64,000 bases of DNA, taken from positions 3,224,001-3,288,000 of the forward strand of contig NZ_JAUSWY010000001.1 of assembly GCF_030815585.1 (NCBI RefSeq), in the 5' to 3' direction. Shown here one piece after another: positions 29,786-64,000 of the stretch. Below the pieces are notes generated by a model. It saw only the letters and a program-made list of their open reading frames with translations. It did no database searches and had not been told where the DNA came from. The translations under genes were made by a program, and so were the position numbers. Position 1 is the first letter of the stretch, and each line of letters opens with the position of its first letter. Source of the stretch: Arthrobacter pascens. GTDB taxonomy: Bacteria > Actinomycetota > Actinomycetes > Actinomycetales > Micrococcaceae.

Positions 29786-29897
29786 CGAAAGCTCCATGGC
29801 TCACAATGCCGAAGCGGCGGACACCACCCCGACGGACACGCCGCTACGCGGGCATTCTCGAATGATTCTTCGATAGCAGCTACGCGGGCATCTTTGA
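28568..29897. mobile_element. Complete ~1.33-kb insertion sequence
   Basis: A single transposase gene is bounded by imperfect terminal inverted repeats. The left end TCA-AGATGCCCGC (28568-28580) matches the inverse of the right end GCGGGCATCTTTGA (29884-29897), and matching continues inward with TCGAAGAATCATT on both sides (left 28591-28603; right, as complement, 29861-29873). The right end has a second TGCCCGCGTAGC-like motif about 33 bp further in. The transposase stop lies inside the left repeat. I could not define a clear target duplication. The IS family name is not certain. Confidence 0.75.
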
Positions 29898-44152: not shown

Positions 44153-44701
44153 TCAAGACTTTCGCCAGATCCGAGAACCGACTACTAAAGCGACAGCGGC
44201 AACTGTTACAACCATTTTTCCTACCATTTGGCCCGCCAGCGCCTCTTGAATCGGGAAGCCTGCAATAGTCAGGAAAATAATCGTGTCAACGAACGATCCG
44301 ACAAGGTTAGACGCAACGGCCGCACGGATATAGCCGCTCTTCCTGAGCGGAGTGTAAACGACGAGGTCGGCTACTTCTGAGGACAGAAATGCCACGGCAG
44401 ACGCAAGGGCAATGAACGGGTCGGCCAAGAAGAAGGACAATGCTGCACCTACAGCAATTAGACCTAGTGTCCACACCTTGCCAGCGGCGTCCTGCAGTGC
44501 GTCGCGCAGAACGAATGTCAACCCTGCGAAGTACGTTCCGGCGGTCGCCATCAAGCCAAAGCCAACGGGAACGATGCCATATCGTGAAGTCACGAAGTTA
44601 GCGGCAAGAATGCAGGCTAGCAGGCCACTTGCCGCTACGCTCGCCACTACAACGTCTCTTCTAGTGCGGGCACTAACGACGGGAAGCGCGGTCTGGGTCA
44701 T
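44153..44701 (-). CDS. VUT-family 7-deazapurine precursor transporter (YhhQ-like)
   Basis: 182-aa membrane protein with about six spans. VUT-family landmarks: VTSRYGIVPVGFGLMATAGT, FVLRDALQDAAGKVWTLGLI, AFLSSEVADLVVYTPLR, and NLVGSFVDTIIFLTIAGFPI. E. coli YhhQ imports preQ0/preQ1 for queuosine. Here it is encoded divergently from the Dpd operon, where 7-deazaguanine precursors are needed for DNA modification, so supply of preQ0 to DpdA is the likely job (inference). AGGAGAC lies 6 nt before the ATG. Confidence 0.85.
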   Translation of the reverse strand: MTQTALPVVSARTRRDVVVASVAASGLLACILAANFVTSRYGIVPVGFGLMATAGTYFAGLTFVLRDALQDAAGKVWTLGLIAVGAALSFFLADPFIALASAVAFLSSEVADLVVYTPLRKSGYIRAAVASNLVGSFVDTIIFLTIAGFPIQEALAGQMVGKMVVTVAAVALVVGSRIWRKS

Positions 44702-45042
44702 GGCTGTCTCCTATACGTGAACTGTCGCCGCCAATAGACATTACAACCACCTAGAGACACGCAGGCGGAAGTACGCTCAAAGTGTGACCAGGTCGTCCTG
44801 ACAGCGACTATTCACTGACCTGCGCGGCCGTCCTCGACAGCGAACCTTGGAGAACCGGACGGCCCACAAGACTTACGCCTTGTTCCCTTGCCTTCCGTCT
44901 CGATCAACCTCTCCGCCATGACCATCGAGACGGTCTGCCCCTTCCTACCGCTCAGGCTGGTCACGCGGCCCCGCATCATCCCGGCAAACTCGTAAGCTAT
45001 ATGTAAGCTTTCTCGAAGGGCATGATAGCAAGGGAGAAATGG
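44702..45042. promoter_or_regulatory. Divergent control region between transporter and dpd operon
   Basis: 341 bp without a gene. It holds a perfect 10-bp inverted repeat, CCGTCTCGAT (44895-44904) and ATCGAGACGG (44924-44933), and a short direct repeat GTAAGCT (44992-44998, 45003-45009) just upstream of dpdE. The promoter of the long dpd operon must lie here; these may be operator elements. I could not pick a confident -35/-10 pair. Confidence 0.45.
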
Positions 45043-48000
45043 GTGGACGCGGAAGGTCGATGTCCCCTTTGCGGTGGCCCCCTGACACTACGCACAGCCA
45101 GATACGGATCTAATGCTGGGTACGAGTTCTGGGGCTGCACGAGATACCCCAACTGCAAGGGCAGCCTGAATATAGACGGCTCGATACCCGACCGCTCGGC
45201 GAAGAAGACGGCGGCCAAGAATGCGGTTGCAGAGAACGCAAACAATCAGACCGCCGCCTCGCTCTACCCCGCAGGGGGACGGGGCAAAACGAGGAGTCTC
45301 CGTCGAGGCGACCTGCTCACCTCCGAGAACAATTCGCTCGGCCCCGGCAAACTCGTAGCCAAGGATGGAGATGACCTGGTCCTAGAGTACTTCGATACCC
45401 CTGGCCAGGCCCCAGAAGCCCGCACCCGGCTTTCCGTCCCGCGCATCGGGCTGCGGCGATTCGCTCTGAAAGCGGAAACACGGGTCTTCTGGATTTCGGC
45501 CGCAAAATGGCGTTCGGGGCGCGTTATAGAGACCACATCACACGGGGACATCTACATTCGAGCCCACGATTGGGAAGGCTACGTCCCCGAGGAAGATTTG
45601 TTTGTGAGGTGGCACCCTCCGCTCACCGACCCGGTTGGTTTCGCTGCGGGCGGCCTGCTCGAGTCACCGTTGTTGGCCGACCTCCGGCGGCCGTTCCTCC
45701 AGGCAATCCTGCGGCAACGCTCCGCCGCCCGCGGTATGAAGGGCGCACTCTCCAGTGCAATCGAACTCCACGATCACCAAGTCGAAACCGCGTGGCGGGT
45801 GCTGCAGGATCCTGTACAGCGCTACCTCCTCGCCGACGAGGTAGGCCTCGGCAAAACCATCGAGGCCGGCATCATCCTGCGTCAGTTGCTCCTCGACCAC
45901 CCAGAACTCTCAGTCCAACTCATCCTGCCGCCATTCCTAATCGGCCAATGGCAGCAAGAACTCGCCGACAAGTTCTTCCTCAACGACTTCACCCAGGCCA
46001 ACATCCGCTTCGCCCGGAACGACGAACCCAGCACCTGGGCCCCCGCCGACCTGCTGATCATCGACGAAGCCCACAATCTGGCCGCTCTCGCTGACAGCAA
46101 CCAACCTGATCTTGCCGCGCGCTACGCCAAACTGACAGAGACCGGGACCCACTCAACACGGATCCTCATGCTCTCGGCAACACCAGCGCTCAATAACGAA
46201 CCGGTGTTCCTGCAGATGCTGAAACTCCTCGACCCTGCCGTCTACGCCGACGTGTCAGTCGAAGACTTCCGCAAGCGCCTCGCCGCACGAGCCGAACTCG
46301 GGCGCATTTTCCTCGGCCTCCAACCCAAAGGCCCCGCGGTACTCCTCCGCAAGCGCCTCACTGAACTAGGCAACGAACTCCCCGGTGACACTGACGTCGA
46401 ACAACTCCTCGCCATAGCATCGGATGCTCTGGACACCAAAAACCCAGACATCCTCAAGGACGCGATCGACAGCCTCCGCACACACGTCGCCGAAATCTAC
46501 CGCGTCCACCGCCGCATGCTGCGCACCCGACGCACATCAGCCCTGCAAGCCACGTACCGCGTCACCGGCCGCAGAGCTCCAGAGGCGCTCACACTGGAAT
46601 CAGACCTGCTCACCGAGACGACTCGACTACTGGAGGCTTGGCGCCAGGAAGCCCTCGCCGCCCACGAGGAAGACCCAATTACGCTTCCGTCCCCTGCACG
46701 AGCGCTCGCCGAGGCCGTCAGCCTCTCGCTCGACCCCGAGGCGCTCGCCGGGTGGGCGTCTGCTCGTGCGGCGTCGACGCCGGGAGAGCAGACCGCGCTC
46801 GATCGCATAGTCCAGGACCTCGCGTTCACGAACCGCCGCGAAATGGTCGCCCGGCCAATCGCGGACGCCCTCTCTTATCTGGTCAAAGCGAAGGAACGCA
46901 TTGTCGTATTCTGCCCGAGCGGCGGCCTTGTGGCCGAACTCGCCAACGCACTCCGTGAGTTCCTCCCCGCCGATGCCGTCCTCGAGCACCGCGCTACTGA
47001 TATTCCGGAGCACATCGAGTCGGTGATCCGGCGGTTCGAGACCGCTCGCGATACGGCGGTCTTGATCGCAGATTCTTCAGCGGAGGAGGGCCGCAACTTC
47101 CAGTTCGCCAACCTTCTGGTCCACGTCGGAGTCCCATCCGATGCCAACCGCATGGAGCAGCGGATTGGGCGCTGTGACCGCTGGCAGATGCATGATGTTC
47201 AAGGTGAGTGGCGCTCCTTGACGGTCACCGAATCCAGCACATTTGAGACATTCGATTCCGCGTGGACCCACATCCTTAAGGACGGCTTTGGAGTCTTCGA
47301 CTCATCGATTGCAAGCCTGCAGTTCGCAGTCGAAGCCGCGACTGAAAGCGCCTGGCAGCAACTCTTCGCCGAAGGCATCAAGGCCACGGAACTGATCATC
47401 AAATCGGTCCGTTCGTCCCTCGAGGAAGAGATCGGTCGGATCCGCGAGCAGGATGCCCTTGACAGCATCGAGTCCAGCAGCGAGCGCGGCTCCGTCTATA
47501 GCCAACTGGCAGAGTTCGAGTCCAGCGAATCCGAGTTCGCAGGACTAACCCATGCTCTCCTCGCTACCGTGCCGGGCAATCTCCGGTTCAATGTTGTCGG
47601 GGACCCGGTAAACGGCGTGGGGGGTTACAAGGTCCTCTCGGGCCTTCCCGGCAAATTGCACATCCCTCTTGTCCCTGTAGAACGGTTAAAGCGCGATTTC
47701 CTCCCGATCCGTGACCTGCGCGGCACTTATCTCCGCAGCATCGCGATCAAGCATCGTGACACGCACCTCTACCGTTATGGTGATCCCTTCATCGACGCGG
47801 TCTCCGACTTCCTGTGGAACGATGACCGCGGGCGTGCCTTCGGCATGTGGCGCTGGGTCCCGGACTGGGGGTACGGCGAACGGATCGCGTACCGCTTCGA
47901 CTATGCCGTTGAGGCCCAACCCCTCGGTAACGAGACCGCACGGGCTACATTGGCGCACCGGGCGGACGGCTTGTTTCCGCCACTGATCGTTACTGTGTGG

Positions 48001-48465
48001 GTCGATGATTCCGGCCATCAGTTGACCGACTCCGACCTCCTAAAAGTTCTGCAGGAGCCATACAGGAAGCCTCAGGACAAGCCTGCCGGTGGTGACTACT
48101 CCCTCAGCCGTTCACGCATCGAGGCCGCCTACCACTACGTTCCGGCCGCTCAATGGTCCCAGGAGTGGCACGATGCGGAGATTGCTGCGGTGAGTCTCGT
48201 TCAGAGTCTTGCCGAGGTCCAGGACGCCATCGCGACGGCTCTCCAGCAGGCCCAGGCCGACTCCGCGAAGCGTGTCAAGCAACTGATGTTGCGCGCTACT
48301 CGTGCCGCGGGCAGCGAACGCGTGGCCCTCGAGCACGAGGCCACTGTCGAGGAGGCCGCAGGACTGGCTCTCACCAAGGCGATAGCAACTCCGACGCTTC
48401 GTCTCGATGGCACGGGCATCGTGATCGTCTCCGGTGAGGAACTGACCATGGACGGTGACGCATGA
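45043..48465 (+). CDS. dpdE: DpdE: SNF2-type helicase with N-terminal zinc ribbon
   Basis: 1140 aa. Residues ~7-38 form a topoisomerase-type zinc ribbon (CPLCGGPLTL and FWGCTRYPNC). The SNF2-like ATPase has LADEVGLGKTIEAGIILRQL (motif I, ~residue 270), LLIIDEAHNLAAL (DEAH, ~340), LSATPALNN, and, in the second half, IADSSAEEGRNFQ and QRIGRCDRW (motif VI). It probably translocates on or remodels DNA in the restriction arm of the Dpd system. GTG 45043 is chosen because AGGGAG lies 6 nt upstream; an in-frame ATG at 45022 has its purine run too close. First gene of the coupled operon; its stop overlaps dpdF (ATGA). Confidence 0.82.
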   Translation: MDAEGRCPLCGGPLTLRTARYGSNAGYEFWGCTRYPNCKGSLNIDGSIPDRSAKKTAAKNAVAENANNQTAASLYPAGGRGKTRSLRRGDLLTSENNSLGPGKLVAKDGDDLVLEYFDTPGQAPEARTRLSVPRIGLRRFALKAETRVFWISAAKWRSGRVIETTSHGDIYIRAHDWEGYVPEEDLFVRWHPPLTDPVGFAAGGLLESPLLADLRRPFLQAILRQRSAARGMKGALSSAIELHDHQVETAWRVLQDPVQRYLLADEVGLGKTIEAGIILRQLLLDHPELSVQLILPPFLIGQWQQELADKFFLNDFTQANIRFARNDEPSTWAPADLLIIDEAHNLAALADSNQPDLAARYAKLTETGTHSTRILMLSATPALNNEPVFLQMLKLLDPAVYADVSVEDFRKRLAARAELGRIFLGLQPKGPAVLLRKRLTELGNELPGDTDVEQLLAIASDALDTKNPDILKDAIDSLRTHVAEIYRVHRRMLRTRRTSALQATYRVTGRRAPEALTLESDLLTETTRLLEAWRQEALAAHEEDPITLPSPARALAEAVSLSLDPEALAGWASARAASTPGEQTALDRIVQDLAFTNRREMVARPIADALSYLVKAKERIVVFCPSGGLVAELANALREFLPADAVLEHRATDIPEHIESVIRRFETARDTAVLIADSSAEEGRNFQFANLLVHVGVPSDANRMEQRIGRCDRWQMHDVQGEWRSLTVTESSTFETFDSAWTHILKDGFGVFDSSIASLQFAVEAATESAWQQLFAEGIKATELIIKSVRSSLEEEIGRIREQDALDSIESSSERGSVYSQLAEFESSESEFAGLTHALLATVPGNLRFNVVGDPVNGVGGYKVLSGLPGKLHIPLVPVERLKRDFLPIRDLRGTYLRSIAIKHRDTHLYRYGDPFIDAVSDFLWNDDRGRAFGMWRWVPDWGYGERIAYRFDYAVEAQPLGNETARATLAHRADGLFPPLIVTVWVDDSGHQLTDSDLLKVLQEPYRKPQDKPAGGDYSLSRSRIEAAYHYVPAAQWSQEWHDAEIAAVSLVQSLAEVQDAIATALQQAQADSAKRVKQLMLRATRAAGSERVALEHEATVEEAAGLALTKAIATPTLRLDGTGIVIVSGEELTMDGDA

Positions 48466-51065
48466 CACTCCAATTCGAAGCCCTCCAGAATGCCCTAGAC
48501 GGGGACTTCGGAGCACTGGACAAGCTCGCGGGACCGCACCGTCGTCTCCTCGATACATGGCTTTCGGATTACCCGGGCGGGAAGATCGCCGCGGACGCTG
48601 CCGCGCTCATCTCGCAAGTGCTTCGACATGAGAGAGACGTGGCATCCATTGCAAGCCCCCGACTTCGGCTCAAACTGGACGATCGTGCAATCTCCACGGA
48701 CGTGCTCGCCCGGAGCAACGTCCACTGCACCCGTTTCGGCAAGACCGAGCACCTCGTCACGCTCACGGATACCTGGGCCCCTGAGTGGCTGCGAGGTGAT
48801 CCCCGATGGATTGACGTCGCATGCTCCAGCCCCGGGCCCTATCTCGGAGGCTCCACTGAGGAAGCATCGACCTATGCACGCCCGGACACCCCCGTGCCGA
48901 TCGATCCCGCACTCAAAGCAATCGCCCCCGGTCTCGCTCAGTACCGTTCCCGAACACAAGCCAACGCAATCCGAACCGCCACCCTCGCGAACCCTGCCTC
49001 TACTCTCCACGTAGTACTCCCCACAGGCACCGGCAAGTCCATCGTCGGCCTCGCCCCGGGCATGCTGCGCCCCGGTGGCAACACGGTCGTGGTAGTTCCC
49101 ACCATTGCGCTCGCCCTTGACCAGGAGCGCACCATCCACAAGCAGTTCCCCGGCATGAATCTTCCTGCTGAACTTGCTTACTATGGCGACCGCCCAGCAG
49201 GCGACAAGGAAGCGATCCGACAGCGTCTTCGTGAGGGCACCCAGCGGGTACTGTTCACCTCACCTGAAGCGCTGGTGAGCGGACTTACTGTGCCACTCCA
49301 TGCGATGGCCGCCACCGGCAAACTCACCAGCATTGTGATCGACGAGGCTCACTTGGTTCGTACTTGGGGTCTCGACTTCCGTCCAGAGTTCCAACTGATC
49401 GGCGCGTTGGTCAGTGAGGTCCGCGCTATCGCAGCAGCCGCAGGTCACAAGGAACCGCAGGTCACCCTGCTCACCGCAACGCTCTCCGAGGAGGGGCTCG
49501 AACTCAACGACGCCCTCTTCCGCGGATCTGACGAGTCACTCTTCATCGGTTCCACATTTCTCCGCACAGAACTCCGCTATCTCATGAGCGCAGCCCCGTC
49601 GCCTGCAGAGCGACTCAACCGCGTCGTGGAGGCGATGCATCATCTGCCGCGGCCGGCCATCGTGTACGTCAGCCGCAAAGCTGATGCCGAGGAACTCGTC
49701 CGCCAACTTCGCGGCGCCGGGTTTGCTCGCACGGAGGCGTTCCACGGTGACGTCCAGGGTCCCGAGCGCCTCCGTATCCTGAACGGATGGTCGGGGTCGC
49801 ACGGTCCTACGGAGATCGACGTTGTCGTCGGCACGAGCGCTTTCGGCCTCGGAGTCGATCAGAGTGACGTGCGGACTGTCGTTCACGCCTGCGTACCGGC
49901 ATCTGTCGACCGTTACTACCAGGAGGTCGGCCGTGCAGGGCGCGACGGGCACGCTGCCGTGGCGGTCTGGCTCACAGCCCCCGGCGATGTGAGCCTCGGA
50001 CGCCACATCGAGGGCAGCACCCTGATCGGTGACAAGAAGGCATGGCCGCGCTGGGAGACCATGCGCCTTCGATCTACAAAGGCCGAGACCGACCCGGGCC
50101 TGCTCGTCGTCGACACGAATGTTGTGCCAGAGGCCCTTCTCTACCAGTCGGGGAAGAATCGGCTCTGGAACCGCAACACACTCACGCTTATGGAGCGGGC
50201 AGGGCTCATCTCCGTCGAGCCGTCTCCCCCACCCAACGTCGTGAAAGGTGATGACGAGGACGAGTCCGACTTCGAACGTCGGCGATCGGCGGTTTGGGAG
50301 GCGTTCAGCAAGCAGGTCCGTGTACGCGTTGCGGGAGGGGTCAACCTCAATCAAGACACATTTGAGAATCGACTCGGTGAACTCCGTGGCGAGATCCGCG
50401 CCACGGAGAAGGCTTCACGAGCGCGCATCGACAGACTGCTGGCGAGGTCAGAGTGCTGGGCGAGCGTGATCGCCTCCGAATACACCCTCAGTGATGTCGG
50501 CGCGATGCACGCGACGCTCTCGGCAGCCGCAGCGTGCTCCGGGTGCCCCGCTGAAAAACACAAGCGTCGTCCGCGCTACGACGCGGCCATGCCAGTGATC
50601 GCTGACGCGGCCATGCCGTGCCTCCACAGGGAAGTCAGCAACACGCTGAAAGACCTCTCCGCTGGCGGAAATGTCGTGATCGTCACCTATCCTGGCAGCC
50701 TGCGCCTTGCACTGCCGAACCTCGTGCGTCGTTGCGTCTCACACGGCATCCGTGGACTCCTGGCGTCACCCTCATTCGCAGGCGTCTCCGCCGTGACAAC
50801 CACTGCTGCTCAGTCAGCCGACGAAGGATTTGTCATGGTAGACACCGTGAGCAGCAGAGTCCCGCAGGTTGCCTTTGCCGTACCCACGCTTATCCTGCTC
50901 GACAAGGGAGACTCCGCCGGTCTGTCCTGGATCAATCCATCGACCGGGCCTTTGCGTGTCGTCGTCTTACCTGAGGACATGAACGACCCCGTAAAGCCCG
51001 GACAAAAGATCAGGGACTATCGCACCCCAGTTTGGGACCTTAAAGAGTTCCTGAGGAGAATCTGA
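48462..51065 (+). CDS. dpdF: DpdF: RecQ-like DEAH helicase
   Basis: 867 aa. Superfamily 2 helicase core: HVVLPTGTGKSIVGLAPGML (motif I, ~187), SIVIDEAHLVRTWGLDF (motif II, ~294), VTLLTATLSEEG (III), VVVGTSAFGLGVDQSDVRTV (V), and YYQEVGRAGRDGHAAVAVWL (VI), the last being RecQ-like. Downstream, SAAAACSGCPAEKHKRRPRY may bind zinc. The C-terminal ~120 residues look like a separate alpha/beta domain (GNVVIVTYPGSLRLALPNLV). The N-terminal 150 residues are unlike RecQ. Start ATG overlaps dpdE. Likely DNA unwinding in the Dpd restriction complex. Confidence 0.82.
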   Translation: MTLQFEALQNALDGDFGALDKLAGPHRRLLDTWLSDYPGGKIAADAAALISQVLRHERDVASIASPRLRLKLDDRAISTDVLARSNVHCTRFGKTEHLVTLTDTWAPEWLRGDPRWIDVACSSPGPYLGGSTEEASTYARPDTPVPIDPALKAIAPGLAQYRSRTQANAIRTATLANPASTLHVVLPTGTGKSIVGLAPGMLRPGGNTVVVVPTIALALDQERTIHKQFPGMNLPAELAYYGDRPAGDKEAIRQRLREGTQRVLFTSPEALVSGLTVPLHAMAATGKLTSIVIDEAHLVRTWGLDFRPEFQLIGALVSEVRAIAAAAGHKEPQVTLLTATLSEEGLELNDALFRGSDESLFIGSTFLRTELRYLMSAAPSPAERLNRVVEAMHHLPRPAIVYVSRKADAEELVRQLRGAGFARTEAFHGDVQGPERLRILNGWSGSHGPTEIDVVVGTSAFGLGVDQSDVRTVVHACVPASVDRYYQEVGRAGRDGHAAVAVWLTAPGDVSLGRHIEGSTLIGDKKAWPRWETMRLRSTKAETDPGLLVVDTNVVPEALLYQSGKNRLWNRNTLTLMERAGLISVEPSPPPNVVKGDDEDESDFERRRSAVWEAFSKQVRVRVAGGVNLNQDTFENRLGELRGEIRATEKASRARIDRLLARSECWASVIASEYTLSDVGAMHATLSAAAACSGCPAEKHKRRPRYDAAMPVIADAAMPCLHREVSNTLKDLSAGGNVVIVTYPGSLRLALPNLVRRCVSHGIRGLLASPSFAGVSAVTTTAAQSADEGFVMVDTVSSRVPQVAFAVPTLILLDKGDSAGLSWINPSTGPLRVVVLPEDMNDPVKPGQKIRDYRTPVWDLKEFLRRI

Positions 51066-51983
51066 ATGGCCGTACTGAACCCCCCTCGTGTCCTTCCGGG
51101 CCTGGGCAGGGCAATCATTAACTTCCTGATCGAAAACCGCAGCAACTGGGATGAAGCAAAGCTCATCGATGCCTTCAAACCCCCAGGCGTGAACGACGAC
51201 GGAGGCGCCGAAAGCATCAAGAATACTCTCAGCGCCTTCCGCGCCATCGGCATGCTTGAGAACAACGGCCAGGGCAACACCACTGTCACCAACCGTGTCA
51301 CCATGCGTGGCTCCAGGTTTGGGCGCGATGAATTCAGGCGCCTGATGCTCAGCCATGTCCTTGACCTCAGCAGGGACGGCAACCCCTGGGCTGTGGGTGA
51401 TGAGGAGGCCAGCACCAGCGGCGCTCGCGACCTGACTCGCGCGCTGTCGTGGTTCCTTGCGCAAGACGCACTCGGCACAGCCCTCAGCTGGAATGACAAC
51501 GTCCAGAAGATGCAAGCCGATCAGTTCGGCACCACGCAAAACGACCAGTGGCCGATCGCAAACGACACCCGGTGGAACGCGTTTTCGCGCTGGGCCCCGG
51601 CGCTTGGATTGGCGGTGCCGTCGATCGCAAGCGGCAACTCAGGTTTGGTGCCGCTCCCCACGCTCGCCATCGCCGACGCCGTCGCCGAACTGCCGAATGG
51701 ACACATGCCAATCCAGGATTTCCTCGACTCCATCTGCCGGAAACTTCCCGTCCTTCCAGGTGGAGTAATCCGCAACGGACTCGTGGCACGGCTCAATGTC
51801 GATCCGGATCCCGGCGTGCAGGGCGATGCCCTCGACACCTCCATCGCCCAAGTACTTCGAATCCTCGAGGCTCGTGGGCATCTTACGCTGGACAATCTGG
51901 CCGACGCCAGTGGCGTATTCCTGTCGCGCAGCAGCCACAATCGCACTACACACGTCACACTGAAAGGCGGCAAGAAGCGATGA
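51066..51983 (+). CDS. dpdG: DpdG-like protein
   Basis: 305 aa. Starts directly after the dpdF stop, with AGGAG inside the end of dpdF. No enzymatic motif is visible. The sequence looks like winged-helix or other helical modules: LGRAIINFLIENRSNWDEAK, IKNTLSAFRAIGMLENNGQG at the start and IAQVLRILEARGHLTLDNLA at the end, suggesting a DNA- or protein-binding adaptor. It is named from its position between dpdF and dpdH and its size, which fit dpd clusters. Its stop overlaps the dpdH ATG. Confidence 0.65.
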   Translation: MAVLNPPRVLPGLGRAIINFLIENRSNWDEAKLIDAFKPPGVNDDGGAESIKNTLSAFRAIGMLENNGQGNTTVTNRVTMRGSRFGRDEFRRLMLSHVLDLSRDGNPWAVGDEEASTSGARDLTRALSWFLAQDALGTALSWNDNVQKMQADQFGTTQNDQWPIANDTRWNAFSRWAPALGLAVPSIASGNSGLVPLPTLAIADAVAELPNGHMPIQDFLDSICRKLPVLPGGVIRNGLVARLNVDPDPGVQGDALDTSIAQVLRILEARGHLTLDNLADASGVFLSRSSHNRTTHVTLKGGKKR

Positions 51984-55015: not shown

Positions 55016-55017
55016 GC

Positions 55018-55722
55018 ATGACGTACCTCGAGAAAATCGGCAAGTTGCGTCTGAATGCTGTCGCCGCCGATGACGAAAACAAGATCAAGAGCCGCTCCGG
55101 CGAGTTCACAGCCTTGCGCGAACTCCTACAGCGTACGACCGCAAACGCTGCAAGCGTCACTGCCGGACGTGAAGAGCTCCAGACTGCCGGATACACGCAA
55201 GACGGCTACGACCAGGACCGCGCCTTGGCCCTCTCCGTAGTTAAGGACCTCATCAACACAATCGAAAGCCTGCCGATTGAGACGAAGTTCGACCTGATCA
55301 AGATTCACGGAAATAGCGTCGAGGCGCATTTCAAGAACTCTGAGAAATTCGTCACCAGCACCTGGAAGGCATACGTATCTTCCCCAACATCCGCCGATCA
55401 CGACGACCTACTGAATGCCCTCGAGCACGGTGGCATCGACGTGGAGGCGATCCGCTCCGATATCGACAACGCGGAATCAGCCCTGCTGACTCTCAAATAC
55501 CGAGTACTCCCCCAAGCAGGCGATGTTGCCAAAATGCGCCAAGCCCTCGACACTCTGAACTCCATCGGCGCACGCATCGGCGAACTCATAGACCCCGCAA
55601 TAGCCGACCTCGTCGTGCGGGCCCAAGACGGCGGCGTCCCATACTCAGAGATGACCTCTGAAGTGATTGTAGCGCTAGAGAAACTCGGCATCCTCGACCG
55701 GTTCCGGGTCGTGCTGACGTGA
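55018..55722 (+). CDS. Dpd operon protein of unknown fold (possible DpdI)
   Basis: 234 aa, all-helical by appearance (FTALRELLQRTTANAASVTA, ALALSVVKDLINTIESLPIE, MRQALDTLNSIGARIGELID). No catalytic motif is visible. It starts 2 nt after the dpdH stop and its own TGA overlaps the GTG of dpdJ, so it is locked into the operon and probably made in step with these ATPases. By gene order it could be the counterpart of dpdI, but I cannot confirm that from sequence. A coiled-coil adaptor for DpdH or DpdJ is a reasonable guess. Confidence 0.6.
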   Translation: MTYLEKIGKLRLNAVAADDENKIKSRSGEFTALRELLQRTTANAASVTAGREELQTAGYTQDGYDQDRALALSVVKDLINTIESLPIETKFDLIKIHGNSVEAHFKNSEKFVTSTWKAYVSSPTSADHDDLLNALEHGGIDVEAIRSDIDNAESALLTLKYRVLPQAGDVAKMRQALDTLNSIGARIGELIDPAIADLVVRAQDGGVPYSEMTSEVIVALEKLGILDRFRVVLT

Positions 55723-58700
55723 AAAAGACGACCGTCCTGCAGGCACTCGACGCGCTAGAGGCACTGGAGGACCCCCTCCTGTGCTGGGGTGTTGTAGATG
55801 GCGGCCTGACCGAAGAGGAACTCTTGCGAGCCCTGGACCAGGTCATCCTGGAAGCAGGTGAGTTCGGGAGCCCCGAAGACCTCGCCGAGATCCTGCTACA
55901 GCAGGGCCTCATCCTGTGCGATGACTCCATTTCCCCGCAACTATGGCGCACCCGCAATGGCGAAACCTTGCGGTTGCTGGCACGGCTACGGCAGGTCTTT
56001 CTCTCGAACAATCCTCAGGCAGCGTGGCGACACGGCGCACAACTGGTTGCGGACTACCGCTATGCCCGGCGAGCGCGCGCCTATCCAAAGCGTGACCAGA
56101 AATGGGACTCTCCTCTCACCGGCGAACCCGACCACACGACATATCGAGAAGTGCTGCGACTCCTCACTGCCAAGCCGGCCGAGCACGGTTCCGGGAATTT
56201 CGACATCGCTGGCTTCCAGGTGCGTGCCACCGCCCACATCCTCGCCTCACTACAGGCCCACACCACATCGGGCACCGTCGTGGGCGCCGGTACCGGTAGC
56301 GGCAAAACACTGGCGTTCTATATGCCTGCGCTCGCCCATATCGCCGCGATCCAGGATTCCAGCGCATGGACCCGGGCGATTGCCGTGTATCCGCGCAATG
56401 AACTGCTGCGGGACCAGTTCTCTACGGCCTTTGCGAATGCGCGTAAACTCGATTCCGTTGCCGTGGCTGTTAATGGCCGTCCGCTCACCATGGGTGTGCT
56501 CAACGGCGATACTCCCACGACGACCGCATCACTGAAGGCCAGTTACTCGACGTGGAAGAGGTCGCCACAGGGTTACCGGTGCCCGACCCTCACCTGCCCG
56601 AGCGATGGCGGCACGCTCCACTGGCCCGAGGCCGATGCCGCCGCAGGCACGGAACGCCTGGTCTGCGGCTCATGCAAGACGTCGTTTGATTCCTCCGTTG
56701 TTGTGCTGACGCGCAAGCGGATGAGCCAGTCGCCGCCGGACGTGCTTTTCACTACGACTGAGATGTTGAATCGCAACATCAGCAATTTGGAGACGCGCCA
56801 CGTGCTCGGAATAGGAGTCACGAAGAAGCCCCGTCTCCTGCTTCTTGACGAGATCCACACCTACGAGGGCACGAGCGGTGCGCAGGCCGGGATGACCATC
56901 CGCCGCTGGCACCACAGCGTGCAGGGCCCCGTGTGTTTCGTGGGCCTCTCCGCCACGCTTGCCAGTGCCGTGCGTCACTTCAGTGATCTCACTGGCGTTG
57001 ACGACGAGTTCGTCACGAGTATAGAACCCGCGCCCGAGGAAATGGAGTACGAAGGTGCCGAATATATGATCGCTGTGCGGAGCGACCCGACGAGTGGTGC
57101 TAGCGTCCTGTCCACGACCATTCAAACGTCGATGCTGCTTCCACGTATCCTCGATGCCCCCACGGCTAGAAACTCCCAGGGGGCGTTTGGTACCAAGGCC
57201 TTCGTGTTCACTGACGACCTGGACGTCACGAACCGACTCTTCTCCAATCTGCTTGATGCCGAGGGGCAGCATTACGCGGGGCAACGGGCCAGACAGGTGA
57301 AGGCTCCGCTCGCTTCGATGCGCATGCCCATTCCTGGCGATGGGGGCGGACAGCGGCGCGCCGGCCAGAGTTGGGACCTGCCGCTGGACCTTGGACACGA
57401 CTTCAAGAGCACGGGCCTGAAGGTGAGCCGTACGTCGTCCCAGGACGCGGGAGTCGATGTCGATTCGCAATTGATTATCGCGACGGCATCGCTGGAGGTG
57501 GGTTTCGATGATCCCGACGTCGGCGCCGTGCTGCAGCACAAGGCTCCGCGGGGTGTCGCTGCGTTTCTGCAGCGCAAGGGACGTGCCGGCAGAGTCCGCG
57601 GCATGCGTCCCTATACGGCCGTTGTCCTCTCTGACTATGGCAGAGACCGAGCGACATACGAAGCATGGGACGTGCTCTTTGACCCGACGCTACCCCGACT
57701 CGTCCTGCCGATCCGTAACAGTGCTGTGCTCCGCATGCAGGCCGCACTAGCCACGATGGATTGGCTTGCTGAACAGGTGCGCTCCCAGAAGCCCTCCGCG
57801 AACCTCTGGCGTGACCTCTCGAGCATCAACAACGCTGATTACGGCCAAAAACAGCGGGAGACCCAAATCGCTGCCGCCGACACGCTCACCAAGGTGCTGC
57901 GCAACCCGTCACTGCAGCACAGCCTTCGCCGATGGATCGGGGGGGCTCTCAACCTGCCCGATAAGGCCGTCGATGAGATCCTCTGGCACCCGCCTCGTGC
58001 CGTTATCCTGGCTGCAGTGCCAACGCTGGCCCGTCGCCTGCGAGCCGAGTGGGCGGTGGCAGAACCCGGCGAACTCGTCCCGGGCAAGGATGTCCTCGGG
58101 GGCAATCCTCTCCCGGATTTCTTCCCTCTGAACCTATTCAGCGACCTCGCGCTCCCGGAGAGTTACGTCTTGGTGCCACCACAGCGCCGGGATTCCACTG
58201 AACCCGAGATGCTGGCAATGGGCATGACGCAAATGCTGCGCGAATTCGCTCCGGGTCGGGTCTCCCGTCGCTTCGCTACACATGATCTCAGCCATCGGCA
58301 CTGGATCCCGGTACCGACGGACGTTCGCGATGCCGTTATCGACATCCCCACAGTCCTGACCTCATTCCGCCACGACTCGGACATCCTTGTTGACATCGAC
58401 AGGACTCCGACCATGCTCAAGTTAGTCCGACCCGACCAACTCAAACTCGAACTCGCACCGGACGAGGTCAAAGACTCCTCGAACGCATTGCTCACCTGGT
58501 CGATGCAATTCACCGTGACCGGCGCAGGTCTGGAAATACGCATCCCGACAACCGACCCCGTTGGCCACTTCGTCAAAGACGCGCGATTCTATCTTCACGC
58601 GCAGAACTCCCACGTCGAAGTGCGTCGGGCAGCGATCGAGTCCGAAGCCACCGTGATGATGAAAGGCGGCGACGACCAGCGTGTGCGCACCTGCTTCCAC

Positions 58701-60212
58701 CTCGATGGGCAACGCGTCGGTCTCGGCGCGACACACGATGTGGACGGCATGTCCGTCCACATCGAACTTCCTGCCGTTATCGACTTACCCAAGGAGATCG
58801 CCCCCGGTATCAAGAGCGCGTGGTTCCGCCACGTCGTCACGACCGACCCGCAACTCCTGGAGCAGGTCAACACGTTCCAACTGGCCTGGCTCGTCGAGAC
58901 CGTCGAAGCGATGCTGCTAACGACCGCGGTGGATAAGCAATGCACCCTCGAAGTTGCATACGCGGAGGTGCGCACGGGCTTCGCCAGTAAACTGCAAGAA
59001 ACCCTTAAAGCGATGTTCCGCAGCTCCGACATCGACGTCGAGAGTGACATCGAAGGTGACGGCACGATGACCAAACTCGGTAAGCGCCTCACCGAGTTGC
59101 TGCACGATCCTGCCATTGTGGCCCGCCTCGATTACCTCGTGGCACAAGCGTGGAAGCCCGATACCGGCGTCTACCAGGCCTGGCTGCATAATCGCGTGCT
59201 GTGCACGTTCGGTCAGGCCATGTTGTGGGCCGCCCGCGAGATCTGCCCCGAACACGACCCCGACGGCCTCTTCGTCGACATCGAACCAGGCCTCGAAGCA
59301 TCCGGGAGGCCACGCACCGACGAGGTATGGCTCACGGAGGCATCCATCGGCGGCGGCGGCTTCATCGAGGCCCTTGCCACCCGGGTCCGCCCAGATCCAC
59401 GCCGCTTCCTACGCCTCATTGCCCGCGCCCTCCAACCAGGGACAAACGAACTCGTCGACGCACACATGCACCGCCTGCTGGAGTTGATCAATGCCGAATC
59501 CCAGTGGAGCACAACCATCTCCGGCTTCCGTTCCGCAGCATCCCAGGAAGAGCGCGTAACAATCCTGGGCACCATCATCACGAAAATGCGCCAGGCCGGT
59601 GTATACGGTGCGGAGCAATCCGTCGTGTCATGCATGGCCAACCGTCTCCTTCGCCCCGGCTCAACCACCACAACCGACCAAACTCTCCAAACGCTCGTCA
59701 ACGAATGGCGCCAACAAGAAGATCGACTGGAAGTGGAGATTCCATCGCGAACTTGGGCCTATCTCATGCGCCAGCGCACCGACCTAGACGACGGCCTCAA
59801 CACCTCGGCATTGAACACGGAGCAACACCGAATCGATGCGATCCAGAGCCTACTCTGGCCACGGGGATGGCAGTTGCGCGCCAGCGAACTGGAATCGTAC
59901 AACCCCTACGCCAAAACCCTGCCGTCAGCACCCGAACTCTTCCGTTCCATGCTCACCACCTCCCAAACCACCATCGACGTGGCTACACAAGAAGCCGACC
60001 GCCACATCCGGGAACTACTCGCCCAAGACGGCTCAGCGCAACTCACAGCCAGGCCCGAACACTCCGCCGAACTTTCCGACCTTCTGGTGGGACTCACCAC
60101 CAAAGCGATCGAGACGGACTTCCTCCAGGTCTACCCACGCATTACCGAAATCAGACATCTGTCCGACGGAACAGCAACTGTCTCACTCGAACTTGCGGAG
60201 GTGGCTCTATGA
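55719..60212 (+). CDS. dpdJ: DpdJ: giant Lhr-like superfamily 2 helicase
   Basis: 1497 aa. Helicase motif I VVGAGTGSGKTLAFYMPALA (~190), motif II LLLLDEIHTYEG (~377), motif III VGLSATLASAV, and motifs V/VI IATASLEVGFDDPDVGAVL and LQRKGRAGRVRGMRPY (~617). A zinc-ribbon-like insert lies between I and II (RCPTLTCPSDGGTLHW, then LVCGSCKTSF). The ~800-residue C-terminal half is unlike characterised helicases. DEIH replaces DEAH/DEAD. Start is a GTG at 55719 overlapping the previous stop (GTGA). It is the largest gene of the island and likely the main motor acting on unmodified DNA. Confidence 0.82.
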   Translation: MKKTTVLQALDALEALEDPLLCWGVVDGGLTEEELLRALDQVILEAGEFGSPEDLAEILLQQGLILCDDSISPQLWRTRNGETLRLLARLRQVFLSNNPQAAWRHGAQLVADYRYARRARAYPKRDQKWDSPLTGEPDHTTYREVLRLLTAKPAEHGSGNFDIAGFQVRATAHILASLQAHTTSGTVVGAGTGSGKTLAFYMPALAHIAAIQDSSAWTRAIAVYPRNELLRDQFSTAFANARKLDSVAVAVNGRPLTMGVLNGDTPTTTASLKASYSTWKRSPQGYRCPTLTCPSDGGTLHWPEADAAAGTERLVCGSCKTSFDSSVVVLTRKRMSQSPPDVLFTTTEMLNRNISNLETRHVLGIGVTKKPRLLLLDEIHTYEGTSGAQAGMTIRRWHHSVQGPVCFVGLSATLASAVRHFSDLTGVDDEFVTSIEPAPEEMEYEGAEYMIAVRSDPTSGASVLSTTIQTSMLLPRILDAPTARNSQGAFGTKAFVFTDDLDVTNRLFSNLLDAEGQHYAGQRARQVKAPLASMRMPIPGDGGGQRRAGQSWDLPLDLGHDFKSTGLKVSRTSSQDAGVDVDSQLIIATASLEVGFDDPDVGAVLQHKAPRGVAAFLQRKGRAGRVRGMRPYTAVVLSDYGRDRATYEAWDVLFDPTLPRLVLPIRNSAVLRMQAALATMDWLAEQVRSQKPSANLWRDLSSINNADYGQKQRETQIAAADTLTKVLRNPSLQHSLRRWIGGALNLPDKAVDEILWHPPRAVILAAVPTLARRLRAEWAVAEPGELVPGKDVLGGNPLPDFFPLNLFSDLALPESYVLVPPQRRDSTEPEMLAMGMTQMLREFAPGRVSRRFATHDLSHRHWIPVPTDVRDAVIDIPTVLTSFRHDSDILVDIDRTPTMLKLVRPDQLKLELAPDEVKDSSNALLTWSMQFTVTGAGLEIRIPTTDPVGHFVKDARFYLHAQNSHVEVRRAAIESEATVMMKGGDDQRVRTCFHLDGQRVGLGATHDVDGMSVHIELPAVIDLPKEIAPGIKSAWFRHVVTTDPQLLEQVNTFQLAWLVETVEAMLLTTAVDKQCTLEVAYAEVRTGFASKLQETLKAMFRSSDIDVESDIEGDGTMTKLGKRLTELLHDPAIVARLDYLVAQAWKPDTGVYQAWLHNRVLCTFGQAMLWAAREICPEHDPDGLFVDIEPGLEASGRPRTDEVWLTEASIGGGGFIEALATRVRPDPRRFLRLIARALQPGTNELVDAHMHRLLELINAESQWSTTISGFRSAASQEERVTILGTIITKMRQAGVYGAEQSVVSCMANRLLRPGSTTTTDQTLQTLVNEWRQQEDRLEVEIPSRTWAYLMRQRTDLDDGLNTSALNTEQHRIDAIQSLLWPRGWQLRASELESYNPYAKTLPSAPELFRSMLTTSQTTIDVATQEADRHIRELLAQDGSAQLTARPEHSAELSDLLVGLTTKAIETDFLQVYPRITEIRHLSDGTATVSLELAEVAL

Positions 60213-60727
60213 GCACCCGACGCATCGCCACCCGAGGTGGCGGGCAGGCACGACTGGTCAACGACCTCCTTCAGACGTTGCTTGTCACCGAACTGCTGGA
60301 CCCATCCAGTGAATTGCTCATACTCTCACCGTGGATCTCCGACATCGTTGTCATTGACAACTCCGCAGGGCAGTTCAAAAGCATCCTGCCAGGCATCCCG
60401 GCCCGCCCCATCCGCTTCACCGAGGTCCTGACCGAACTAGCCCGACGTGGCACCCGGGTGCGTATCATGATCCGCAACGATGACAAGAACACCGCCGTCC
60501 GCACCCGAATCAACAGTCTGCCCGCGTCCGGCTCTCGTCCCGAGATCCTCATCCGTGACAACCTTCACGACAAAGGGTTGCTGAGCGACCGCTTCCACGT
60601 ATACGGATCAATGAACTTCACGTTCTACGGACAAGCAGTAAACGAGGAGGGCGTCACCGTGACATCAGATGCCGACGCGATCGCCCGAGCCCGCCTGGAC
60701 TACCAGAGGAGGTACCAGGTTTCGTGA
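60209..60727 (+). CDS. dpdK: DpdK: phospholipase D-like nuclease domain protein
   Basis: 172 aa. A single PLD-superfamily domain: ELLILSPWISDIVVID, LARRGTRVRIMIRN, then RDNLHDKGLLSDRFHVYGSM with the His-x-Lys of an HKD-like motif at residues 120 and 122. One motif per chain implies a homodimer, as in Nuc/BfiI-type nucleases. It is the best candidate for the DNA-cutting activity in this operon. The ATG overlaps the dpdJ stop (ATGA) and its own TGA overlaps the GTG of the next gene. Confidence 0.82.
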   Translation: MSTRRIATRGGGQARLVNDLLQTLLVTELLDPSSELLILSPWISDIVVIDNSAGQFKSILPGIPARPIRFTEVLTELARRGTRVRIMIRNDDKNTAVRTRINSLPASGSRPEILIRDNLHDKGLLSDRFHVYGSMNFTFYGQAVNEEGVTVTSDADAIARARLDYQRRYQVS

Positions 60728-62958
60728 GTGACGTCCTTGATGATTTCTTCGAAGCCGGCAACGAAATCAAGCCGGCCGCCGTGGACCCAACGATGCAAGC
60801 TCTGCTCGATCATTGGCAAGCCGCGATCAGGCGCGGCGCGGTCGGCTTCCTGCCACGCCGCGCGCAGCAGCGCACCTACTGGTACGCCTTCGCGCCTTCC
60901 CAACGACAGCGCCGCGAACTACTCGGCCTCCTCGACGCATGGGTCGGTCCAACCTACAGCGACCTCGAAAAAAACCGCGGTGAATTGGAACCATCCGATC
61001 CATTCGACGCCGCACTCGCCAGTCGTGAGGTCATGCCCTTGCGCTTTGAAGTACTGCCGCGGGTGGCTCCGCACTCGGCCCAGGCCAAAGAAGCGGTCCG
61101 TAACGCCCTGACGATACTAACCCGACTTGCGAACGAGCGCCCGCCCTCGCAGTTCGACGCCATGCGAACGACCGTGGAGATCCTCGACGACCTCGGCCAC
61201 GCCGTCGCCGCGCATGACCGGGCGCTGGCAGAAGCATGCATGGCCGAGCTCGAGCAGTCGGCAGATCTGGATGAGGCGAATCTGGCCTTCCTCAGGCTCC
61301 GCAACTACGCAGGCATGCACGATTGGGCCGCGATGTTCAAAGATCCAGCCCTGGACCATGTGCTGTCCATGCGGCGTCCGTTGGGGGTCACTCGGGTTAT
61401 CCAGTCGGGTCTCTACTACGAGCGGTTCAGGGACGTCGATCACCGGGGCGCGGAGGCCGACCTTCGAGCTGCCGCCGAGGAGTTGGAGCCTGCCCTCCGC
61501 GACCTCTACACCGGTGCCCCGCCTAACAATCGAGCAGAAGCCGTCGTCGAACTCGTCTGCAGGTTACTGACCACCCGTTCCGCGACCGATACGGCTGTTA
61601 TCGAACTCCTCGGTCTCGCACCCAATATTCAGTCGGGACTCGACGAGCAGTTCCTCCGCATTGTCGAAGCCTTCGTTCCTATGGAGAACAATCCCGACCG
61701 AGTTCCCGAGGTGCGGATCGAACAGCCGACACCCACCACGACGTCGATTGCCTCCTTGATGCTCCAAGGCGAGTATGCCGCGTGCATTGAATTGGGTGTA
61801 GCCAGCGAGCCGAGTTTGGAAGCGGGACGTGCGCTTGTTTACGCTGCGCGTCAGATGGCCAGCGCGAGTTGGGCAAACAAAGTCGTGGACTATCTCGTCG
61901 CACACGACCTCAAGGAGGCGGTCGCATCTACGACACCCATACTTCGCACGGACGTGGCTTGGCTGGAGTCTGTCCGACTTGAGTGGCCGGTTCGCGGCTG
62001 GGACGATTGGTTTGCGAGCCTCGAGGACCCCGAGTCCGCAACCCTGCGGCTGTCAAACGAGACTGTGCAGGAGTGGAAGCCTCTTAGTGCGAACAAGCTC
62101 ACGGTACTACTAACCGAGGCCTCAGATACAACACTGGGCAAACTTGGGGAATGCGGTGGCCAGTTCCTTGCTGCGCACAGTGATGTTTTCGAGTCGGAAG
62201 TTACGTTGCGACTGATTGCATCCATGGCTTTGGGGAGCAAGGCTTCGGCAGGCGTTCGTGTGCAGACACTAGCACTGATCGAGTCGCTCAGCGCTAGTAG
62301 TCCTTCCCAGGCTATCTACCAGGATGCCCTGGATTGGACCGCTGAAATAATGGAGACGAATGCCGCGGCAATCACTGTGGCGTGGATCTGTGACATCGTT
62401 CAGACGCTCACGGCGATCCCAGCGCCCGGCAGTACCGCGTCAGTGCTGTCGTTCTACTTCAAAGCGATCGAGGTCATCCGCCCATACCGGACAGCACTCG
62501 CCAACGCTGATGTCGAAGCACTGGCGATAGTTGCTGCAGAACTCGGCACCGAACTGCCGGCAGACTTCCGTGCGGCGGCAGTCGAAGCCGGCGGGATTGA
62601 TCCGACTGCTTCGTACCGATATCTGGAAGGGAAAAAAGTAGTCCTACATTCCCTGACTGAAACTGCCATTGCACGCGCCGCGCAGGTGCTAAAGCGCCTG
62701 GTGCCGAGCGTCGACGTAAGCACAAACTCCGACCACGACGGCAGCACACAACTTGCACAGATGAGCGCCAACGCTGACGTTTTCGTCGTGGTCACAGCTG
62801 CTGCAAAGCACGCGGCGACGACATTCATCGCCGGCCACCGCGGGAGCCGTCCTATAGTTTGGGTCAACTCTCGAGGATCCTCCGCAATCCTACGCGAACT
62901 TACGAAGTCCACACCCGGGTCCGGACACCGGCCCCATGTCACTGCTGGGCATGGGTAG
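60724..62958 (+). CDS. dpdD: DpdD-like protein with C-terminal DUF2325-like module
   Basis: 744 aa. The first ~620 residues are mostly helical and unrecognised (RRAQQRTYWYAFAPSQRQRR, LEPALRDLYTGAPPNNRAEA). The last ~100 residues look like a DUF2325/Rossmann-like unit: KKVVLHSLTETAIARAAQVL, ANADVFVVVTAAAKHAATTF, and RPIVWVNSRGSSAILRELT. GTG 60724 overlaps the dpdK stop, so it is the eighth and last gene of the operon. The DpdD name rests on island membership and size, not on a recognised domain. It converges on the dpdB-like gene after ~200 bp. Confidence 0.6.
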   Translation: MSDVLDDFFEAGNEIKPAAVDPTMQALLDHWQAAIRRGAVGFLPRRAQQRTYWYAFAPSQRQRRELLGLLDAWVGPTYSDLEKNRGELEPSDPFDAALASREVMPLRFEVLPRVAPHSAQAKEAVRNALTILTRLANERPPSQFDAMRTTVEILDDLGHAVAAHDRALAEACMAELEQSADLDEANLAFLRLRNYAGMHDWAAMFKDPALDHVLSMRRPLGVTRVIQSGLYYERFRDVDHRGAEADLRAAAEELEPALRDLYTGAPPNNRAEAVVELVCRLLTTRSATDTAVIELLGLAPNIQSGLDEQFLRIVEAFVPMENNPDRVPEVRIEQPTPTTTSIASLMLQGEYAACIELGVASEPSLEAGRALVYAARQMASASWANKVVDYLVAHDLKEAVASTTPILRTDVAWLESVRLEWPVRGWDDWFASLEDPESATLRLSNETVQEWKPLSANKLTVLLTEASDTTLGKLGECGGQFLAAHSDVFESEVTLRLIASMALGSKASAGVRVQTLALIESLSASSPSQAIYQDALDWTAEIMETNAAAITVAWICDIVQTLTAIPAPGSTASVLSFYFKAIEVIRPYRTALANADVEALAIVAAELGTELPADFRAAAVEAGGIDPTASYRYLEGKKVVLHSLTETAIARAAQVLKRLVPSVDVSTNSDHDGSTQLAQMSANADVFVVVTAAAKHAATTFIAGHRGSRPIVWVNSRGSSAILRELTKSTPGSGHRPHVTAGHG

Positions 62959-63162
62959 TCCCCGCTGACTTGTCCTGCTTTTGAGCCCCGCTGTCTCAGC
63001 GTCTAGACAGTCGATAGGAAACGCCGTGACGTCGCCGTCCTTACCCATCACAAATGGTTTGCGCAAATCTGTTATGCGATGGGGCTTGATAACAGCTTGC
63101 ACCCAGAGACGCACCGCCCTTAGTGGCCGGGTAGCCGATTTCGTCGGACGACTTCACCACGG

Positions 63163-64000
63163 TTATTTTAGAGCCCTGAGGAGATGGTTCGTCAGCAGCC
63201 GAACATCTGTCGGAGTGTTCTGCAAACCATTCCATCGACGCACGTTGTCGGTCGCAAATTCCCACGTTCCGCTCGTCCACGCGACATGAGGCTTGAGCTT
63301 GTAGATTGCACTTTCGAGATCCAGACCGGGGAGTTCGGCCGCCGGTACGCCCTCGGTCAGTGAATCCATAACATATCCCAAGGACTGGATGCCCGCCCCA
63401 TGGGTAAGGCGTGATTTGAGTGGCGGTAGCGCCCATGCCTCCGGAAAGACAGACTGGACGACGGTCCAGAAATAGTTGAGGTGAAGTTCAACCTGTGCGA
63501 CATCCGCTGACCCATCACTAGGATCGCGATATTGGTACAGTGCCCCCTCGTATAGGCTATTCTCGATCATTCTCAGGACACTGTTGTCCTTGATGTACCC
63601 GTCGGGAGTGGTCGGAGTAGCGATCCTTCCGCCGAATGGTGTGCCAATCTGCTTGGCTGAGGCATTAATGTGCGTCATGATCAACGCCGGGAGTTGCTTT
63701 CTCGCATATGCCGCGGGGAGGTGCCCAGCCGTGTCCGGCAGGAGTTCATGAATGAGACCCTTGGGCAGGGGTTTTGTGTTATTCACGAGGATGAATTGCG
63801 AGCGTTGTTCTGCCTCACCATGTGCGATGAAGCCAACCGCCGCCACGGGAAACTCAGCAAGGTCGGCATCACGAATTGCTGCGCTGCGTTGCTGGCCGTC
63901 GACGAGCCAGGCCGGCTTTTCGTCGTCGGGCAATGATTCGTCAACTGGGATGACGAGTTCCCCAACTGTCGAGTACGCCAAATCTCCCACCGGGGCAGTG
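63163..64000 (-). CDS. dpdB: DpdB-like DGQHR-domain protein (5' end outside window)
   Basis: The visible 279 codons remain open to the right edge, so the N-terminus is missing. A ParB/DGQHR-type core is present as KPAWLVDGQQRSAAIRDADL, with Gln where His is usual in the signature. FILVNNTKPLPKGLIHELLP follows, as in DNA-sulfur DndB and DpdB relatives. DpdB works with the transglycosylase DpdA to put preQ0 into DNA. It is transcribed toward the restriction operon; dpdA and dpdC probably lie upstream of it, beyond 64000. Confidence 0.8.
   Translation of the reverse strand, partial: TAPVGDLAYSTVGELVIPVDESLPDDEKPAWLVDGQQRSAAIRDADLAEFPVAAVGFIAHGEAEQRSQFILVNNTKPLPKGLIHELLPDTAGHLPAAYARKQLPALIMTHINASAKQIGTPFGGRIATPTTPDGYIKDNSVLRMIENSLYEGALYQYRDPSDGSADVAQVELHLNYFWTVVQSVFPEAWALPPLKSRLTHGAGIQSLGYVMDSLTEGVPAAELPGLDLESAIYKLKPHVAWTSGTWEFATDNVRRWNGLQNTPTDVRLLTNHLLRALK

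Follow-up and report, generated by a model that had tools for sequence, protein, structure and literature searches.

A Dpd island of Arthrobacter pascens whose restriction cassette appears to have been exchanged beside a conserved modification operon

The closest described relatives of the locus analysed here are the Dpd islands, which mark DNA with a 7-deazaguanine base and restrict DNA that lacks it. In the enterobacterial islands of Escherichia coli ATCC 8739 and the Enterobacter cloacae plasmid pPOL9A, an unnamed gene is followed by dpdA and dpdB and then by a convergent block in the order D-K-J-hypothetical-H-G-F-E. In pPOL9A this first gene is a match to the PADLOC model for DpdC (470 bits), and a review writes the enterobacterial operon as dpdCAB (PMC12707154). 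This enterobacterial cluster was matched in 159 of 5426 E. coli genomes, with 58 of the matches spanning 80% or more of the query. Dpd is related through its helicases to DISARM, Druantia and BRIGADE (the YprA-helicase systems), and shares phospholipase D (PLD)-family nucleases with DISARM; to our knowledge, DISARM and Druantia are without deazaguanine genes. BRIGADE usually joins two YprA helicases to a deazaguanine cluster and is described only from halophilic archaea (PMC12458937). Actinobacterial Dpd islands are also in print: PMC11888242 counts 333 Actinomycetota dpd windows, calls Kineococcus radiotolerans validated, and describes full operons with genes for preQ0 (7-cyano-7-deazaguanine) and a YhhQ transporter nearby, so that the remark of an earlier note on this DNA that the actinobacterial form has had little characterisation was partly right. 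Here we analyse a window of 64,000 bases (bases 3224001-3288000 of the single contig, 4,729,875 bases long, that makes up the A. pascens genome) together with its right flank, stretch L002, whose positions are given as window-equivalent coordinates (L002 position + 62000). The island that it carries is by content and order a complete, ordinary Dpd island, new in its restriction allotype. It is very probably a Dpd restriction-modification island in which a restriction cassette was replaced as a block beside a fixed modification operon. Background on Dpd draws in part on PMC11888242, PMC12458937, PMC12839542, PMC6884629 and PMC12707154.

Genes were assigned to families by profile matches against NCBIfam, Pfam and PADLOC, with scores given below as bits/cut-off. 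The earlier note had seen, at 44153-64000, a zinc-ribbon helicase, a RecQ-like helicase, a P-loop ATPase, an Lhr-like helicase, an HKD nuclease, a DGQHR protein and a VUT transporter, and had read from them the order E-F-G-H-x-J-K-D with a convergent B; all are present, in families matched far beyond chance, and the order was borne out. On the left lies vut (44153..44701, minus strand), a VUT/YhhQ-like putative preQ0 transporter (Pfam Vut_1, 42.3/27.2 bits) that falls below the cut-off of the NCBIfam queuosine-precursor-transporter model TIGR00697 (36.4/50.95). The restriction genes follow on the plus strand: dpdE (45022..48465; 1087/500 with NCBIfam), a SNF2/RapA-like helicase whose N-terminal part carries a zinc ribbon of the topoisomerase type at residues 12-51 (Pfam Zn_ribbon_Top1, 37.1 bits); dpdF (48462..51065; 686/550), a RecQ-like helicase; dpdG (51066..51983; 172/80); dpdH (51980..55015; 633/450), a P-loop ATPase with the Walker A motif GGSGTGKS; gene x (55018..55722), encoding the 234-amino-acid protein P0006, which has no family match of its own; dpdJ (55719..60212; 1731/800), a YprA/Lhr-like helicase; dpdK (60209..60727; 180/100), a PLD-family (HKD) nuclease with the motif HDKGLLSD; and dpdD (60724..62958; 524/300). 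The listed open reading frame (ORF) of dpdH is over-extended and the longest ORF of dpdK starts too early; the start methionines are at 51980 and 60209, respectively. A first dpdB, dpdB1, lies on the minus strand (63163..64000, continuing to 64266 past the window edge; 362/300 when cut at the edge and 495 bits whole). Thus all eight dpd proteins of the window other than x, including seven of the seven restriction proteins DpdD, E, F, G, H, J and K, exceed their NCBIfam cut-offs.

Past the right edge of the window the island continues for ∼6.1 kb. Here dpdA, for which the earlier note had advised looking there along with dpdC, starts ∼0.3 kb beyond the edge, with dpdC after it. On the minus strand are dpdA (64259-65503, L002:2259-3503; NCBIfam DpdA 500/200, 584 bits over the whole open frame), dpdB2 (65504-66637; NCBIfam DpdB 384/300) and dpdC (66634-67539; PADLOC DpdC 324 bits, E 2.5e-97); on the plus strand are queC (67636-68325; NCBIfam QueC 214 bits), queE (68327-68962; QueE 334 bits), queD (68959-69342; QueD 116/89) and folE2 (69332-70126; FolE2 229 bits). 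With this flank all the dpd and preQ0 genes are accounted for, and the claim that the island is complete holds if x is dpdI. Residues 2-398 of DpdA align to the DNA-guanine transglycosylase of PDB entry 7ui4 (376 bits), and D92, D253, C361, C363, C366 and H388, the last four forming a CxCxxC...H set, are invariant in a 16-sequence alignment (A1); from the related tRNA-guanine transglycosylase (TGT) enzymes we take the aspartates to be catalytic and the Cys-His set to bind zinc. Both DpdB1 and DpdB2 carry a DGQQR motif, and a search of the PDB found no relatives of DpdB. DpdC has no match in NCBIfam or Pfam, and a single chance-level match in the PDB.

Because these steps are known in other bacteria, roles can be proposed by homology. 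FolE2, QueD, QueE and QueC would convert GTP to preQ0; DpdA, with DpdB, would exchange guanine in DNA for preQ0, which DpdC would convert to 7-amido-7-deazaguanine (ADG); and DpdD-K would attack unmarked DNA. The preQ0 made by the island most likely goes mainly to DNA, since the island queC is the sole QueC match in the genome and QueA has no match there (the same search was positive in 9 of 14 control genomes). The absence of a QueA match led us to reject queuosine in tRNA as the chief destination of the preQ0; a side role is possible given one TGT over the cut-off elsewhere in the genome, at 3781731.

The order of the genes was also compared with that of other islands. The earlier note had taken it to be unusual and unlike an alphabetic Salmonella cluster, a contrast not borne out in ATCC 8739 and pPOL9A, the two orders compared, both of which are the mirror of the window. 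For a wider view, a DpdA-alignment scan yielded 159 confirmed loci, the best 80 of which were used; the survey seed was actinobacterial and so is the sample. The restriction genes lie to the right of dpdB1 and convergent with it in 50 of the 80 loci, to the right and co-directional in 17, to the left in 7, in an odd arrangement in one (L091) and out of view in 5. The convergent layout is thus the commonest, and gene order was rejected as a novelty. In the surveyed actinobacterial islands the modification genes form a fixed operon in the order dpdC-dpdB2-dpdA-dpdB1, and its two DpdBs have diverged deeply. Immediately upstream of dpdA is dpdB2 in 79 of 80 loci, and immediately downstream is dpdB1 in 80 of 80; the two flank dpdA in 79, and dpdC is upstream of dpdB2 in 78. 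queC is in the locus in 79 of 80 and vut in 22. All 79 B2 proteins and 79 of 80 B1 proteins carry the motif VDGQQR, and in a tree of 54 sequences (26 chosen islands contributing both B1 and B2, plus two single enterobacterial DpdBs) each type occupies one side of a branch, with support of 100 for B2 and 92 for B1.

Two DpdBs extend beyond Actinobacteria. Among 18 plasmid records matching DpdB2, nine have two DpdB-like places (for example NZ_CP059450.1, NZ_CP086112.1 and CP146243.1), and we take the genera of these two-DpdB records to be alphaproteobacterial. With these plasmids, and with the 801 extra dpdB copies given in PMC11888242, we rejected the idea that a second dpdB arose as a novelty of Actinobacteria. 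The enterobacterial islands differ in having one dpdB, and ATCC 8739 has queD alone adjoining, in contrast to the queC-queE-queD-folE2 set described here. In sequence, too, the A. pascens and E. coli proteins are far apart: DpdC is 23% identical, the restriction proteins are ∼27-34% identical where they align (E 28, J 33, K 33), no alignment was found for G and I, and E. coli DpdE, unlike that of A. pascens, has no zinc ribbon. Named relatives include those of DpdA in Arthrobacter sp. UYEF2 (95%) and Paenarthrobacter sp. NEAU-H11 (82%), and of x in Pseudarthrobacter (58%), which places the host in the Arthrobacter group. DpdA exceeds its cut-off in 3 of 198 same-genus genomes and in 2 of 396 same-phylum genomes, the A. 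pascens genome being included in both counts.

The evidence for exchange of the restriction part comes first from two genomes of the same genus that carry islands, G574 and G535. Nucleotide homology between the A. pascens island and that of G535 covers vut (44156-44749), the stretch from dpdB1 to folE2 (63170-70129) and a type IV-like restriction gene (72327-75492), whereas the segment 44750..63169, between vut as left border and dpdB1, has no nucleotide match of at least 250 bases to G574 or G535. We refer to the allotype in this segment as R1. The bordering proteins are 59-95% identical to those of G574 and G535, respectively (VUT 65 and 79%; A 82 and 87; B1 91 and 95; B2 89 and 94; C 59 and 76), and the mREase_IV flank is 83-85% identical in DNA to both. 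The restriction proteins, in contrast, are ∼25-36% identical in best local alignments (E 31 and 30%; F 32 and 36; G 27 and 28; H 31 and 31; J 35 and 35; K 35 and 34; D 28 and 28, one DpdD piece giving 25% in a separate comparison). Relative to dpdB1, the cassettes of G574 and G535 are inverted compared with that of A. pascens, and they are similar to each other (67-78%). R1 occupies the vut-to-dpdB1 slot in which G574 and G535 carry an allotype only ∼30% identical. Since the G574 and G535 cassettes resemble each other and the modification tree makes A. pascens the sister of G535, R1 has, on the simplest view, taken the place of the older cassette in the A. pascens lineage. In G535 itself, DpdF was recovered in three tblastn pieces (G535:C1:1205506-1207504) with a partial best ORF, and may be broken.

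The survey places R1 in a wider setting. A locus was assigned to R1 when at least two of its restriction genes were at least 42% identical to those of A. pascens and scored better with these than with those of G574. Nine of the 80 loci carry R1, in Terrabacter (L033, L035), Kribbella (L038), Nocardioides (L039), Streptomyces (L048, L051, L061, L067) and Cellulomonas (L081); in five no restriction gene is seen within the stretch available, and the rest have other allotypes. Both the DpdE tree (R1 in 8 of 26 rows) and the DpdJ tree (R1 in 3 of 57 rows, with L079 adjoining) set R1 on one side of a branch with support of 100; one short row was dropped from each. An N-terminal zinc ribbon is present in all eight R1 DpdE proteins that are visible (in A. 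pascens by Pfam, in seven loci by cysteine pattern; L038 and L081 are not visible), and the cysteine pattern is missing from 17 of 17 other visible DpdE proteins, E. coli included.

On the tree of the modification proteins (A, B1 and B2; 83 rows, with L091, E. coli and pPOL9A omitted as lacking B2), R1 is hardly clustered: it requires 8 changes, compared with a mean of 9.6 when shuffled, and values as low were seen in 32 of 500 shuffles. Forcing R1 into one clade was rejected, with a log-likelihood 2429 lower and an approximately unbiased test p-value (p-AU) of 5.7e-5. Two further groupings, both chosen after viewing the tree, were likewise rejected as clades: the four R1 rows from Streptomyces (log-likelihood 128 lower, p-AU 2.5e-5) and A. 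pascens together with both Terrabacter (log-likelihood 757 lower, p-AU 5.7e-5). There are also pairs of islands with nearly identical modification genes and different cassettes. Terrabacter L033 and L034 are 97.7% identical in A, 96.5% in B1, 97.9% in B2 and 92.2% in C, yet their allotypes are not the same. Between Streptomyces L051 and L053, identity is 95.5, 97.3 and 98.1% in A, B1 and B2, compared with 31.4% in DpdE. The restriction and modification trees are incongruent in a way that points to exchange. Because the restriction block is divergent between shared borders, and because R1 is a single clade by DpdE and by DpdJ yet turns up in separate parts of the modification tree, it appears that restriction cassettes have been exchanged whole next to a conserved modification operon, the restriction part behaving as a separate unit that would be replaced as a block.

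We infer that the two allotypes recognise a common mark, which would make them interchangeable. It is rather likely, though well short of assured, that Dpd restriction modules in general are interchangeable cassettes acting on a common mark, and that R1, with its zinc-ribbon DpdE and a DpdI missed by the models, has repeatedly replaced others, evolving and travelling independently of the modification genes and perhaps escaping phage counter-defence. The Terrabacter and Streptomyces pairs, with A, B1 and B2 95-98% identical beside different cassettes, offer natural material on this point: should each cassette prove functional with either operon, the mark would be the target, and not contact with the cognate DpdA-C. 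A defined question beyond the reach of the single-DpdB enterobacterial model is posed by the two DpdB clades. Neither exchange of restriction cassettes nor a zinc-ribbon DpdE allotype was found in the open-licence literature, although they may be published elsewhere.

Several points weigh against the reading of block replacement in a working, complete island. R1 is defined by identity to the window, at a threshold that we chose, and L079 and L109, with one R1-like gene each, were entered as ‘other’. The trees are quick ones, with support from the Shimodaira-Hasegawa-like approximate likelihood ratio test (SH-aLRT) only, and those of DpdE and DpdJ carry a warning that long branches may meet. 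Counts of changes on a tree do not separate gain from loss or show direction. Base composition lends little support to exchange: GC is 0.613 in the R1 segment, 0.556-0.569 in the vut, modification and que genes and 0.632 in the mREase flank, and the restriction segments of G574 and G535 are at 0.580 and 0.600. The remaining points concern two genes, dpdA and x.

The A. pascens dpdA has a stop codon at the conserved start, and the first standard start is a GTG 48 codons further on. The conserved start is ATG, GTG or TTG in 83 of 85 loci, and in E. coli the start lies further upstream, which leaves A. pascens as the sole locus of the 85 without a standard start there or upstream. An ATG overlapping the dpdB2 stop is out of frame with dpdA. 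This may be a sequencing or assembly error, a silent modification system or an unusual mode of initiation. The corresponding alternative, that the island is inactive in this strain, with a defective start of dpdA and with restriction genes that are unused or relics, we regard as unlikely, while giving it the most weight of the alternatives considered. The lack of an in-frame ATG, GTG or TTG at the conserved start speaks for it, as does the adjoining mREase_IV-like gene, which is likewise split into two frames. However, the dpdA frame is open over 414 codons, the remaining dpd proteins that have models match them over nearly the full length, and two anomalies set so close together also fit a local sequencing error. 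Intact dpdA copies occur in close relatives.

Gene x is probably a divergent dpdI, judging from its position and from weak similarities. The same slot between H and J is filled in E. coli, G031, G574 and Cellulomonas L081, and the enterobacterial protein there scores 109 bits against the NCBIfam DpdI cut-off of 150. P0006, which finds 36 database proteins including itself, has no match in NCBIfam, PADLOC or Pfam, the DpdI models included, and when it was scanned with its relatives P0040, P0050 and P0059 only P0050 matched NCBIfam DpdI (E 0.0072); the positional homologue in G031, P0182, matches at E 2.7e-4. That x is instead unrelated to DpdI, a different accessory protein in its place, is improbable. 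It would agree with the silence of the DpdI models on P0006, with the lack of any match to PADLOC DpdI among the four relatives P0028, P0040, P0050 and P0059, and with weak direct comparisons: BLASTP against the G031 positional homologue is weak, as is profile comparison with the enterobacterial DpdI (probability 7.4%, E 0.0047). Against it stand the shared slot, the NCBIfam matches of P0050 and P0182, and C-terminal ends that look alike by eye, with a T and a hydrophobic pattern followed by an ILDxFxV-like stretch. The predicted structure of P0006 is all-helical (mean predicted local distance difference test score, pLDDT, 80; predicted template modelling score, pTM, 0.65; from 12 sequences).

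An old duplication with differential loss, in which ancestral islands combined both restriction allotypes with a single modification operon before each lineage lost one or the other, would also scatter the two allotypes over the modification tree. We consider this very improbable: A. pascens, G574 and G535 have only one DpdJ over the cut-off each, and the occurrence of R1 and non-R1 cassettes beside modification operons 95-98% identical in A, B1 and B2 would need both to have been kept until recently. Finally, that the cluster is a relative of DISARM, Druantia or BRIGADE instead of Dpd can be dismissed almost outright, because the related helicases of those systems appear as secondary matches to DpdE and DpdJ while the Dpd models lead by hundreds of bits (DpdE 1087 against DrmD 121), DpdA, B and C and the preQ0 genes are present, and a single DpdJ over the cut-off contrasts with the usual two YprA helicases of BRIGADE, described only from haloarchaea (PMC12458937). 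DISARM membership, which calls for DrmA, DrmB and DrmC together with a DNA methyltransferase, was rejected with the DrmA, DrmC and DrmD models matching island proteins only as weaker relatives of DpdE, F, J and K; no methyltransferase family is among the matches listed for the island proteins, the rest of the genome not having been searched for DISARM. BRIGADE membership was rejected on the single DpdJ genome-wide, the next match being at 34 bits, and on the actinobacterial host.

Some neighbouring genes were also noted. Between folE2 and the mREase_IV gene, at 70280-72429 (L002:8280-10429, minus strand), are a DGQHR/DndB-like protein of 502 amino acids, below the Pfam cut-off, and an ORF of unassigned function; both are missing from G574 and G535 and so form an insertion relative to both. 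The mREase_IV-like gene (PADLOC) follows at 72323-75478 (L002:10323-13478, minus strand) and encodes a PLD-helicase-DUF3427 protein split over two frames; homologous DNA directly follows folE2 in G574 and G535. On the left, an ORF of 281 amino acids adjoins vut (43236-44081, minus strand), with no PADLOC family and, in Pfam, only PEP-CTERM at E 0.063.

Further out in the window, a Subtilase-family protease gene (31979-33823, minus strand) lies in a low-GC stretch, with a third-position GC of 0.46 compared with 0.64-0.85 in neighbouring ORFs, and may be a recent acquisition. An integrase core (rve) domain protein, probably a transposase, is encoded at 28568-29797 (minus strand). To the right of the island are an ORF that reads by eye as an IS3-type transposase (L002:16963-17601, minus strand) and a CHAT-domain protein (L002:17796-19931, plus strand).

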